NCBI RefSeq assembly: GCF_000737535.1
Contig: NZ_CP006269.1
Location: forward strand, 124,001-188,000
Source: Synechococcus sp. KORDI-100
Lineage (GTDB): Bacteria > Cyanobacteriota > Cyanobacteriia > PCC-6307 > Cyanobiaceae
Reading direction: 5' to 3'
Length of the DNA: 64,000 bases
The translations under genes were made by a program, and so were the position numbers. The notes beneath the pieces are model-generated. The model ran no database searches and was not told the DNA's origin. It worked only from the letters and a program-made list of their open reading frames with translations. This document shows positions 12,209 to 27,328 of the stretch, in pieces. How positions within the stretch are numbered: the first letter of the stretch is position 1; every line of letters starts with the position of its first letter.

Positions 12209-12370
12209 ATGGAGAAATTGCTCTCAACCACGGCCGATCTTCTATCGGCAGCTGCCTCCAACCCAGACCGAGTTCTGCGCTGGGGACTGATTTATTTCGG
12301 GATATCCTCAGTAGGTTTCATCGGGGTCTGGCTGATTGGTGAAATATGGAGCCAGAACAACAATAACTAA
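12209..12370 (+). CDS. Small single-span membrane protein, hypothetical (53 aa)
   Basis: ATG directly follows the TAA of the preceding gene with no gap. The 53-residue product starts MEKLLSTTADLLSAAASNP, has one membrane segment of about 21 residues (LIYFGISSVGFIGVWLIG) and ends in a polar Asn tail. It is too short for length-based gene finding, but the coupled start and the clean membrane helix support it. Base use is more AT-rich than in mraY, marking the edge of the AT-richer islet. Function unknown. Confidence 0.5.
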   Translation: MEKLLSTTADLLSAAASNPDRVLRWGLIYFGISSVGFIGVWLIGEIWSQNNNN

Positions 12371-12373
12371 AGG

Positions 12374-12934
12374 TTAAATCTGTCCATAATCCATGAGGAA
12401 GTGAGCAGCAACATGATTCGTGCTTGTGATCGTTGTTAAAAGTGTTACTCCTGGCACGTAATACGACATAGGGGTCGCCTCGGCCTCCCAGGAATCCACA
12501 AAGAAGTTCGTTGAGTGAAGGGTGTCCTGATAATCAGGCCAATCAGCAGAAGTTACCACTTCTATATAATATTTTTGATTCTTTTTCTTGGTATTTTTAA
12601 TTGTAACCGCATGGTTGTGCCATTCACCATTCTCCTGATAACTGGAGATCACTCCTCTGGCAGATCGTTGACGTCGTAGTGTTTATTGAAATTCTTAGCA
12701 AGTTTCTCCAGGTTCATGGACCCGAAAAACGATCGGATCGATCTGAAAAAGTGATGATGTCTGTGCTGTCTTCAGGGTCGAAAACAAAAGCCTTGGTATT
12801 ACCCTTCTTAATTTCACAGCAGCACCTGAAGCATCGAAACTAAATATCCAAGAATATTGTGTTGTGCTGTCTGGAATGTATGAGGTTGTTGTTTCTGTTG
12901 TGGTGGGATCCGATGAACCAGTCTACTCAGACAT
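12374..12934 (-). pseudogene. Remains of one broken gene in an AT-richer islet
   Basis: The longest intact piece is 92 codons (12374-12652), reading VISSYQENGEWHNHAV and ending HVAAHFLMDYGQI. Upstream on the same strand, protein-like pieces continue in other frames. MSE is followed by a TAG at 12923, then Thr-rich sequence and SYIPDSTTQYSWIFSFDAS. A frame change leads to TKAFVFDPEDSTDIITF. Another leads to MNLEKLAKNFNKHYDV, ending NDLPEE and TGA, which overlaps the GTG of the last piece as GTGA. Joined, they give about 185 residues, so one stop and about three frameshifts seem to have broken a gene. An alternative is two small overlapping genes (22 and 92 codons). No family recognised. Confidence 0.5.
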
Positions 12935-24668: not shown

Positions 24669-25769
24669 GTGTTTGAAAACCTTCGTCGCCGTTTCGCAGC
24701 CACCCCGGTGATGCAGGACTGGCCGGGCCTGATCGAGGCCTACCGAAGCTGGCTTCCGGTCACGAGCACCACCCCGGTCATCACCTTGCGAGAGGGAGCG
24801 ACACCGCTCATCCCTGTGCCATCGATCGCTGAACGGATCGGCAGAGGGGTATCGGTTTTTGTGAAATACGACGGTCTGAATCCCACCGGATCCTTCAAGG
24901 ACCGGGGGATGACGATGGCCATCAGCAAAGCCAAGGAAACCGGCTGTGAAGCGGTGATCTGCGCCAGCACGGGCAACACCAGTGCAGCCGCCGCGGCCTA
25001 TGCACGCCGCGGCGGCATGCGGGCCTTTGTGCTGATCCCTGATGGCTACGTCGCCCAGGGGAAGCTGGCACAGGCCCTCGTTTACGGCGCTGAAGTTCTG
25101 GCAATCCGAGGGAACTTCGACCGCGCGCTCGACATCGTTCAGGAGGCGGCGAAGACCTACCCGGTGACCCTGGTGAATTCAGTGAATCCGTTCCGCCTGC
25201 AGGGCCAGAAGACAGCAGCTTTCGAAATTGTGGACGCACTGGGAGAAGCCCCTGACTGGCTCTGCATTCCGATGGGGAATGCTGGCAACATCACGGCCTA
25301 CTGGATGGGCTTTGGGGAGTACCAAAAAGCTGGTCACAGCCGCAGACTGCCCAGGATGATGGGATTCCAGGCCAGCGGTTCAGCTCCTCTGGTCAAGGGA
25401 CAGACGATCACCGACCCGGAAACGATTGCGACAGCGATCCGCATTGGCAATCCGGTGAACCGTGAGAAGGCACTCGCCGCGCGACAGGCCAGCAACGGAG
25501 CATTCCTGGATGTCACCGATGGAGAGATCATTGATGCCTACAAGCTTCTCGGAGGCCAGGAAGGCATCTTCTGCGAACCGGCGAGCGCCGCATCCGTTGC
25601 CGGTCTGTTGAAACGGAAGGACGAGGTTCCCCAGGAGGCAACTGTGGTGTGCGTTCTCACCGGAAACGGGCTCAAGGACCCCGATTGCGCCATCAAAAAC
25701 AACGACGCAGCGTTCCATACGGATCTGGATCCGGATCTCGGGACCGTGGCCAAGGTGATGGGTTTTTGA
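24669..25769 (+). CDS. thrC: Threonine synthase
   Basis: ThrC converts O-phosphohomoserine to threonine with PLP. The 366 residues from a GTG start include NPTGSFKDRGMTMAI (PLP Lys in SFKDRG), ASTGNTSAAAAAYA, the PLP-phosphate loop PMGNAGNITAYWMG and VCVLTGNGLKDPD. It is the shorter bacterial type. It ends at the edge of the gene-free interval before dnaN; GGGTTTTT over its last codons pairs with AAAAACCC 12 bases on, a weak possible transcript end. Confidence 0.96.
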   Translation: MFENLRRRFAATPVMQDWPGLIEAYRSWLPVTSTTPVITLREGATPLIPVPSIAERIGRGVSVFVKYDGLNPTGSFKDRGMTMAISKAKETGCEAVICASTGNTSAAAAAYARRGGMRAFVLIPDGYVAQGKLAQALVYGAEVLAIRGNFDRALDIVQEAAKTYPVTLVNSVNPFRLQGQKTAAFEIVDALGEAPDWLCIPMGNAGNITAYWMGFGEYQKAGHSRRLPRMMGFQASGSAPLVKGQTITDPETIATAIRIGNPVNREKALAARQASNGAFLDVTDGEIIDAYKLLGGQEGIFCEPASAASVAGLLKRKDEVPQEATVVCVLTGNGLKDPDCAIKNNDAAFHTDLDPDLGTVAKVMGF

Positions 25770-26161
25770 ATCAGAGCGAAAAAACCCGGAGACAGTCGGC
25801 AAACAGCCTGAGGAGAACCGGGCACAACCACGCCCCGGCGCTGTGGAAAGTCCACCCGGACCAATCCACTTGGAAGCGACAGAGGATTTCACAGCTGGTG
25901 GAAAAGGGGAATTCAGAACACTTCCGCACAACCAGGCTGAGATTCTCCACGCTGCTCTGCCGCCAGGACCTCAGTCACTGACTGACGGATCTGCCCCTTT
26001 TCCCCTTTTCCACCGTCCCTTCTACAACGGTTGTTCTTCTAATTCTTTTTTGAAGACAAAGAACAAAACAGCCGAACGTGATCCATTGAAGGCATTGGCA
26101 TTGCGTTCAGCGCATCCCTGTGAAACGGTGGAGCACCCGAACAGCTCCAGCCCCCAGCACG
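25770..26161. other. Candidate chromosome replication origin (oriC)
   Basis: A 392-base interval without genes, between thrC and dnaN, where marine picocyanobacterial genome numbering usually begins. DnaA-box-like 9-mers (cyanobacterial consensus TTTTCCACA) are seen at 26006-26014 (TTTTCCACC), inverted at 25897-25905 (same 9-mer), and inverted at 25842-25850 (CTTTCCACA). An AT-rich stretch at about 26031-26070 contains TTGTTCTT and its inverted copy 20 bases on, a possible unwinding element. The promoter of dnaN should also lie here. No RNA gene is seen. Confidence 0.65.
25897..26014. repeat. Perfect 15-base inverted repeat, arms 88 bases apart, in the origin candidate
   Basis: The arm at 25897-25911 (GGTGGAAAAGGGGAA) and the arm at 26000-26014 are exact reverse complements. 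Each outer end is a DnaA-box-like TTTTCCACC in opposite orientation. Chance identity over 15 bases at this distance is unlikely. Confidence 0.8.
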
Positions 26162-27328
26162 ATGAAAGTGGTCTGCTCCCAGGCGGAACTCAATGCAGCG
26201 CTGCAGCTCGTCAGCCGTGCCGTCGCGACACGCCCGACCCATCCCGTGCTGGCCAATGTTCTTCTGACCGCCGATGCTGGCACCGGACGCGTGAGCCTGA
26301 CCGGTTTTGATTTGAGTCTGGGGATTCAGACCTCACTGGCTGCCGAGGTGGAAAGCAGCGGTGCCATCACCCTTCCCGCCCGTCTGCTCGGCGAGATTGT
26401 CAACCGTTTGTCGAGCGATTCACCGATCACCCTCGCCACAGAGGAGTCCGGGGAACAGATTCAGCTCAACAGTCTCAGCGGCAGCTATCAGATGCGAGGC
26501 ATGCCTGCAGACGATTACCCCGAATTGCCGATGGTGGAAAGCGGCAGAACGTTGAAGCTTCAAGCCTCCGTTCTTGTGGAGGCTCTCAGGGGAACGTTGT
26601 TTGCCAGCAGTGGTGATGAGGCAAAGCAGCTCCTCACCGGTGTGCACCTGCAATTCCGTCAGCAGGCCCTCGAAGCAGCCGCCACGGATGGCCATCGCCT
26701 GGCTGTGCTGGAAGTGGACAACGTCCTTCAGGATCAGAGCGAGCCTTCCGTCAACCCTGACAGCGACGAGGAAGCCTTTGCCGTCACCTTGCCGGCCCGC
26801 TCCCTGCGCGAGGTGGAGCGAATGATGGCGGGATGGCGTTCCGGCGAGCCGGTGAGTCTGTTCTGTGATCGCGGTCAGGTGGTTTTTCTGGCTTCTGATC
26901 AGATGGTCACCAGTCGCACCCTGGAAGGCACCTATCCGAATTACCGCCAGCTGATTCCTGATGGTTTCAGCCGCAGCCTCGGCCTGGATCGTCGGGCCCT
27001 GATCGCCGCGCTTGAAAGGATCGCTGTGTTGGCTGATCAGCACAACAATGTCGTCAAGTTCATGACCGAGCCGGACAAGGGCATGGTCCAAATCAGTGCC
27101 GATGCTCAGGATGTCGGCAGCGGTTCGGAATCTCTGCCCGCCAATCTCAGCGGTGAAGCCTTGCAGATTGCCTTCAACGTCAGATATCTGCTCGATGGTC
27201 TGAAGGCCATGGCTGTGGACCGGGTGGTTCTCCATTGCAATGCGCCGACGACGCCTGCTGTGCTGAAGCCAGAGGAGGCTGCCGATGGGTTCACCTACCT
27301 GGTGATGCCGGTTCAGATCCGTTCCTGA
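26162..27328 (+). CDS. dnaN: DNA polymerase III beta subunit (sliding clamp)
   Basis: DnaN is the ring-shaped processivity clamp of the replicase. From ATG at 26162 the protein is 388 residues, starting MKVVCSQAELNAALQLVSRA. Family landmarks are HPVLANVLLTAD, LPARLLGEIVNRL, AATDGHRLAVLEV, EGTYPNYRQLIP and the C-terminal YLVMPVQIR. The 14 codons open upstream are not part of the fold. It is the first gene after the origin candidate and leads dnaN-PRC-purL-purF. Confidence 0.97.
   Translation: MKVVCSQAELNAALQLVSRAVATRPTHPVLANVLLTADAGTGRVSLTGFDLSLGIQTSLAAEVESSGAITLPARLLGEIVNRLSSDSPITLATEESGEQIQLNSLSGSYQMRGMPADDYPELPMVESGRTLKLQASVLVEALRGTLFASSGDEAKQLLTGVHLQFRQQALEAAATDGHRLAVLEVDNVLQDQSEPSVNPDSDEEAFAVTLPARSLREVERMMAGWRSGEPVSLFCDRGQVVFLASDQMVTSRTLEGTYPNYRQLIPDGFSRSLGLDRRALIAALERIAVLADQHNNVVKFMTEPDKGMVQISADAQDVGSGSESLPANLSGEALQIAFNVRYLLDGLKAMAVDRVVLHCNAPTTPAVLKPEEAADGFTYLVMPVQIRS

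Follow-up and report, generated by a model that had tools for sequence, protein, structure and literature searches.

The gap between thrC and dnaN in Synechococcus sp. KORDI-100 holds several sites that resemble DnaA boxes, placed in both orientations beside an AT-rich stretch (Table 1). It lies in a window of 64 kb, the whole stretch of DNA analysed here, which corresponds to bases 124001-188000 of one 2.789-Mb contig. The original prediction read the gap as an origin candidate framed by a perfect 15-base inverted repeat, and the letters, arms, 9-mers, 8-base pair and coordinates from which it started are all present in the sequence. Is this the place where copying of the chromosome begins? 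If so, which of the sites would do the work?

Table 1. Features of the thrC–dnaN region of KORDI-100, numbered from the first base of the window.
Feature	Position	Strand	Remarks
thrC	24669..25769	+	366 aa; name from the original prediction and the gene order in PMC2836286
Predicted oriC (thrC–dnaN intergenic region)	25770..26161	.	392 bp; skew turn, gene order
Left-facing DnaA-box-like 9-mer	25842..25850	-	CTTTCCACA; one mismatch from TTTTCCACA
Left arm of perfect 15-bp inverted repeat	25897..25911	+	GGTGGAAAAGGGGAA; perfect in KORDI-100 only (31 genomes)
Outer 9-mer of left arm	25897..25905	-	TTTTCCACC; 8 of 9 bases of TTTTCCACA
Inner 9-mer of left tandem	25905..25913	-	AATTCCCCT; weak in KORDI-100
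Putative BUS box 1	25997..26005	+	CTTTTCCCC; weak, four mismatches to TTTTCCACA (by eye)
Right arm of perfect 15-bp inverted repeat	26000..26014	+	TTCCCCTTTTCCACC; overlaps the BUS tandem boxes
Putative BUS box 2	26006..26014	+	TTTTCCACC; one mismatch from TTTTCCACA
4-base spacer	26015..26018	+	GTCC; GGCC in 21 of 30 genus genomes
Putative DnaA-trios, conserved register	26019..26030	-	3'-GAA GAT GTT GCC-5'; box strand CTT CTA CAA CGG
Predicted AT-rich unwinding element	26031..26070	.	least stable 40 bp of about 1.5 kb 5' of dnaN
Weak left-facing box-like site	26119..26127	-	CGTTTCACA; three mismatches; CATTGC begins 20 bp before
dnaN	26162..27328	+	388 aa from ATG 26162; ORF list begins at GTG 26120

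The position of the gap was judged from the strand asymmetry of the chromosome, using 55 sampled 10-kb stretches and two from the window, together about one fifth of its length. All four samples that precede 150 kb have a negative GC skew. Between 150001 and 1.60 Mb the skew is positive with five exceptions (the samples at 750, 800, 950 and 1350 kb are negative and that at 1000 kb is zero), and it turns negative again from 1.60 Mb to the end, save for slightly positive samples at 2400 and 2500 kb. Keto skew flips its sign at the same two places with no exceptions. Cumulative walks within the window reach their minima at or near the spacer: 25942 for T-A, 26439 for G-C and 26524 for keto. Sampled skew and window walks thus place a turning point at the thrC–dnaN spacer, as expected of an oriC; the original prediction had located its candidate here, and the missing turning point that it named as its own refutation did not materialise. 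This coincidence of gap and skew turn gives the word origin good support, and copying of the KORDI-100 chromosome very probably begins here. The gap also adjoins dnaN, which is what defines the dnaN type of cyanobacterial oriC, and dnaA lies far from it, at 1.995 Mb on the same contig. A thrC-like reading frame precedes dnaN in 81 of 82 regions from the family, the match in the 82nd (G116) falling below the score threshold. As an origin, that of KORDI-100 is genuine and ordinary in kind, with a predictable location; both the location and the module found in it belong to known kinds. Elsewhere on the chromosome, the samples at 250001-260000 (41% GC) and 300001-310000 (43%) are GC-poor against 49-64% in the others, and may be genomic islands. 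The record of a closed relative (G001) begins inside dnaN, the first 29 codons of the gene standing at the record's other end.

The sites inside the gap were followed through an alignment of 31 spacers, 30 from genomes of the genus (KORDI-100 included) and one from another genus of the family; four genus genomes in which dnaN is absent or partial (G011, G012, G013 and G016) stand outside it. The exact box TTTTCCACA is absent from the thrC–dnaN spacer of KORDI-100, where the closest sites are the one-mismatch copies at 25842, 25897 and 26006. How much weight can such 9-mers carry? Across the genome TTTTCCACC has 29 copies against 22 for the pattern read backwards, and exact TTTTCCACA has 16 against 14 in the control. 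With counts so close to control level a single 9-mer is weak evidence, and the case is carried by position, spacing and conservation. The site at 25842-25850 is an exact TTTTCCACA in 13 of the 31 aligned genomes and keeps within two mismatches in all 31. At 25897-25905 the distance from TTTTCCACA is one mismatch in two genomes and two to four in the other 29, and at 25905-25913 it is one mismatch in 24 of the 31. Box-like sites in both orientations, beside an AT-rich and easily melted stretch, are kept in the 31 aligned genomes, and to this extent the arrangement originally described stands. Two pairs of exact TTTTCCACA elsewhere were considered as alternative origins and rejected: the pair at 1939761/1940120 lies inside an ORF read as thrS, the pair at 1875680/1875968 upstream of a 629-aa ORF, and both are on the negative-skew arm. 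The two boxes of the latter pair (1875680-1875976) are 288 bp apart in opposite orientation, and the ORF that follows them reads, labelled by eye, like a Ca-binding, metalloprotease-like protein.

The two arms of the 15-bp repeat are exact reverse complements with 88 nt between them, and the original prediction saw in them a functional paired frame for DnaA, one in which (as in a cruciform) the symmetry itself would matter. The repeat is improbable by chance: among 5000 dinucleotide-shuffled versions of the spacer a single one contained a perfect repeat of at least 15 (0 of 100 in a smaller run), and the whole 64-kb window holds no second perfect 15-mer pair with starts up to 200 bp apart. The opposed box-like sites are kept as well, and the aligned arms agree at 6-13 of 15 positions in the other 30 genomes (6-15 with KORDI-100 counted), compared with 4.0 ± 1.8 for random spacer 15-mers. 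The perfect pair, however, occurs in one of the 31 aligned genomes, KORDI-100 alone. In its nearest genome (dnaN 96% identical) the longest perfect repeat of the spacer does not exceed 8 bp, and in the others it measures 8-12 bp. Moreover, the best left-hand site is the inner and not the outer 9-mer in 24 of the 31 genomes. Symmetry that is kept among relatives, the mark of a functional inverted repeat or cruciform, is thus not seen across these 31 genomes. The arms resemble each other because both are box pairs, and in the left arm of KORDI-100 the inner 9-mer is weak and the outer strong, which creates the perfect repeat. A frame or cruciform that depends on symmetry appears very improbable to us; the perfect 15-bp repeat is a single-genome by-product of two opposed tandem box pairs turning identical. 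The loss of the arms in close relatives, which the original prediction had offered as grounds for rejection, therefore came out divided: perfect arms are missing from the other 30 genomes, and DnaA-box-like sites remain at both places. The 8-base inverted pair within the AT-rich stretch (26031-26038, TTGTTCTT; 26059-26066, AAGAACAA), taken at the outset as part of the unwinding element, is likewise perfect in KORDI-100 only among the 31 genomes and finds no support in that role. In several relatives the melting element (26028-26074) is bordered, as seen by eye in the alignment, by CGGCTGTT and AACAGCCG; the left flank in KORDI-100 is CGGTTGTT, with one mismatch. Repeated binding sites in an origin can thus give rise, as a by-product, to a perfect inverted repeat that catches the eye.

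The arrangement around the right arm is of a kind known from the oriC of B. subtilis, where DnaA-boxes, a spacer and DnaA-trios together form the basal unwinding system, or BUS (PMC6669920, PMC10721633). Two co-oriented tandem boxes stand directly 5' of the putative trios in KORDI-100, the first of them weak; box 1 shifted by one base has two mismatches to TTTTCCACA and then overlaps box 2 by one base. The same order is found 5' of dnaN in most of 51 further genomes of the family and 10 genomes of other families: a box resembling TTTTCCAC and then one resembling TTTCCNCA come first, and after four bases there follow CTACTACTAC or a related sequence and AT-rich DNA. The 51 were used, at one or two per genus and with upstream DNA on the same contig, out of 184 family genomes with a dnaN match (201 searched), and the 10 come from 23 genomes of the same class. 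Judged from sequence, the conserved design, with its right-facing tandem box pair, 4-base spacer, trios and AT-rich stretch, is that of a BUS, to which boxes facing left are added upstream and a single weak box-like site of the same orientation downstream.

This homology was quantified with a matrix of 44 positions built from 48 training sites, none of them from the genus of KORDI-100; 14 of the 62 regions outside the genus yielded no training site. The sites were anchored by the expression CTAC.AC, which fixes several trio letters in them, so that the letters there are informative only in the 30 untrained genus genomes. Over both strands of the 64 kb, positions 25995-26038 score 27.0 bits and the next separate site -9.0. 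If the matrix is reduced to its box and spacer columns, these positions still come first by a small margin (13.9 against 11.8 bits), and if it is reduced to the trio columns they come second (9.5 against 10.0); the core stands out by combination and spacing. Scores exceed 20 bits in 88 of 92 regions (30 of 30 in the genus, 50 of 52 in the rest of the family, 8 of 10 in other families), those below being G116 (9.3), G080, G052 and G056. KORDI-100 itself has the lowest score within its genus. When 59 whole genomes were scanned with a tight IUPAC pattern modelled on the cores of the genus itself, 21 had a single hit each, in every case immediately 5' of dnaN; all 21 belong to the 34 genomes of the genus and none to the 25 others, and the reversed control gave 2 hits. 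A looser BUS pattern was rejected as a marker, since it matched 148 of 201 genomes and the controls alike and was therefore unspecific. Column conservation before dnaN, measured on the alignment in 14-base bins, peaks at 0.95 at 26008-26021 and lies at 0.44-0.58 in the variable parts.

How well do the trios of KORDI-100 itself conform? From 26019 the box strand reads CTT CTA CAA CGG TTG TTC, which is 3'-GAA GAT GTT GCC AAC AAG-5' on the opposite strand. In this conserved register two A-centred trios precede a third that is T-centred, the only T-centred trio among trios 1-4 of the 30 genus genomes. Three leading A-centred trios in the register set by the 4-base spacer, as a BUS would have, are thus absent from KORDI-100; no genome among the 30 of the genus has them, compared with 27 of 50 elsewhere in the family and all 8 from other families. 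For this reason the KORDI-100 core is classed as a BUS variant. The published search rule for BUS asks for a box with at most two mismatches, a spacer of up to 16 and at least three 3'-NAN-5' trios (PMC8287927), and KORDI-100 does contain such an arrangement: from the box at 26006, a spacer of 15 leads to seven A-centred trios. Further solutions are a spacer of 16 with three trios, and the box at 25842 on the minus strand, also with three. The working trios could accordingly lie in another register, in the T-rich tract. The A-only rule is satisfied somewhere in 30 of 31 spacers and in 111 of 620 shuffled ones; as shuffled spacers pass it so often, homology and not the rule carries the identification of the BUS. 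A register starting from CTA at 26022 with a 3-base insertion was also considered; the matrix selects the ungapped register from CTT at 26019, which is also the better fit.

The predicted unwinding element follows the trios directly. In 30 of 31 genomes (KORDI-100 included) the least stable 40 bp of the DNA before dnaN occupy the corresponding position; AT-rich G034 is the exception. At a length of 40 bp, the 64-kb window contains two sites of lower stability than this element. Depending on the length over which stability is computed, two to five places in the window melt more easily than the origin element, among them a locally GC-poor one at about 12290-12600. Beyond the element, a block with CATTGC and TGTGAAA (26099-26131), no more than 110 bp before dnaN, is present in 30 of 30 genus genomes. 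A pattern written after looking at the sequences, TTGC-gap-TRTGRAA with TTGC 9-20 bp ahead of a TGTGAAA/TGTGGAA-like site, matches 67 of the 81 BUS-containing regions of the family (37 of 51 from other genera of the family), 0 of 8 from other families and 0 of 1780 shuffles. The left-facing site in this block may be a DnaA box, a part of the dnaN promoter, or both. Could the conserved sites as a whole be a dnaN promoter or leader with autoregulatory DnaA boxes, and not (or not only) an origin? The constancy of this block so close to dnaN throughout the genus is what such a promoter would lead one to expect. The skew turn at the spacer argues the other way, as do the distance from core to dnaN, which is too variable for a promoter (121-210 bp in 80 scoring family genomes, 128-638 bp in the 8 scoring ones of other families), the fixed place of the melting element after the core, and the lack of any Rfam match over 24-28 kb at E values up to 1. 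We give this explanation next to no credence and retain the origin.

Is the protein that would act on this core still fit to do so? The dnaA gene of KORDI-100 is present and intact. Its trio-contacting residues are conserved: the equivalents of B. subtilis E183, N187, I190, I193, R202 and E228, through which trio bases are captured, are invariant in 28 of 28 cyanobacterial DnaAs, and the equivalent of N196 is D in 27 and K in one. The DnaA of S. elongatus unwinds its own BUS in vitro, for which boxes and trios are both required (PMC8287927). Nevertheless, conservation of a box cluster does not prove its use, as there are cyanobacteria whose replication is DnaA-independent (PMC7198777). Could replication start here without DnaA, as reported for Synechocystis PCC 6803, the boxes and trios being decaying relics and the weak trios of KORDI-100 part of that decay? 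The T-centred trio found in this one genome of the genus, the missing exact consensus box and the DnaA-independent replication of other cyanobacteria (PMC7198777) would all agree with it. The regular skew with its two turning points speaks against it, together with the core columns conserved at 0.95 and the intact DnaA. The first of these points has to be read with care: Nostoc 7120 shows a V-shaped skew profile and is DnaA-independent according to the abstract of the same study (PMC7198777), so such a profile is no strict sign of DnaA dependence. On balance we judge firing without DnaA to be highly improbable.

We are thus confident that the thrC–dnaN spacer is the chromosomal oriC of the KORDI-100 picocyanobacterium, most likely with a BUS as its working core at 25997-26070 and with auxiliary left-facing boxes. 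The observations beneath this model are the skew position, the homology of the core, the register fixed by the spacer, the conserved DnaA contacts and the melting element. By analogy with the work on B. subtilis and S. elongatus, DnaA would bind the two right-facing tandem boxes, and the oligomer would extend rightwards over the 4-base spacer onto the bottom strand, where it would capture two bases of each trinucleotide from 26019 onwards. This capture would open the AT-rich element for helicase loading. The left-facing sites at 25842-25850 and 25897-25913 and the weak one at 26119-26127 would be auxiliary, loading or looping more DnaA onto the core. A supply of DnaA by looping has been proposed for boxes of B. 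subtilis (PMC6669920), and its extension to the left-facing boxes here is speculative.

Which bases do the trios of the family prefer? In trios 1-4 of 88 genomes (352 cells, which are not independent) the first base is G in 348, and the middle position holds 244 A, 102 C, 4 G and 2 T. The leading G is found in 30 of 30 genus genomes for trios 1-3 and in 29 of 30 for trio 4, none of which entered the training. In the 24 regions below 40% GC (measured over 960 bases) all 72 middle bases of trios 1-3 are A, and the share of C is 46 of 93 at 55-60% GC and 19 of 54 at 60% GC or more. On a tree of thrC fragments from 80 genomes (rough, as 95-248 residues and a quick method were used) 40 changes of the middle base are needed, at least 35 of them between A and C and at most five with G or T. 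As yardsticks, the same change, to G on the box strand, makes up 108 of 291 departures (37%) at 21 T-majority fourfold sites of dnaN in the genus and 67 of 378 (18%) in 65 T-majority spacer columns outside the core. Compared with these, 35 of 40 gives p values of 6e-11 and 1e-21, respectively, with the qualification that cells were counted for the yardsticks and steps on a tree for the 40, neither being fully independent. In B. subtilis a C-centred trio keeps strand separation and allows faster growth than one centred on G or T, and Asn187 of DnaA reads the amino group of the middle base (PMC10721633); the natural A/C pattern of the family fits this rule.

We lean slightly towards the view that the family (Cyanobiaceae) has re-coded the trio, such that DnaA recognises the captured middle base by the amino group and accepts A and C alike, G and T being avoided, with the origins of GC-rich marine Synechococcus running on 3'-GAN and 3'-GCN. 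The code would then have drifted from 3'-GAT to a mix of 3'-GAN and 3'-GCN. The A-centred trios in other registers (30 of 31 spacers) speak against this reading, and KORDI-100, with its one T-centred trio, is an exception to the A/C pattern within its genus. The bias may alternatively stem from another constraint, or from context-dependent mutation favouring G on the box strand. In the passages covered from the DnaA-trio literature no natural C-centred trios were found described, though tables such as DoriC may list them; those seen here appear to be a new variant. Few phototrophs are as abundant as marine Synechococcus and Prochlorococcus. If the re-coding is real, a 3'-GAN/3'-GCN register is passed over by A-only searches. 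The drift from A to C is a natural experiment bearing on the B. subtilis rule. What deserves further work here is the family-wide variation of the trio code, and the alignment offers a testable map at base level, with the 18 bases of the loading boxes, the start of the trio register and the site of duplex opening.

How does this origin compare with those already known? Cyanobacterial origins of the dnaN type with TTTTCCACA boxes have been described for Cyanothece 51142, Anabaena 7120 and S. elongatus (PMC4674748), and KORDI-100 shares with them a box cluster and an AT-rich stretch beside dnaN; it differs in that the best boxes of its spacer fall one mismatch short of the exact sequence. The predicted origins of Prochlorococcus, which rested on skew, gene order and nearby boxes, were likewise placed by GC skew between threonine synthase and dnaN (PMC2836286), so that the two neighbouring genes and the means of location are the same. 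The GC-poor members of the family, the 24 regions that we take as Prochlorococcus-like, keep A throughout their 72 trio middles, whereas KORDI-100 and its genus do not. The BUS of B. subtilis and S. elongatus resembles the KORDI-100 core: both have a pair of boxes facing the same way, a short spacer, trinucleotides kept in register on the other strand and, beyond them, AT-rich DNA, and the residues of DnaA that contact the trios are kept. The differences are that the boxes of KORDI-100 are weak (CTTTTCCCC and TTTTCCACC), that box 2 of its relatives reads TTTTCCCCA in 13 of the 31 aligned genomes, and that the trios of the family are often centred on C instead of A.
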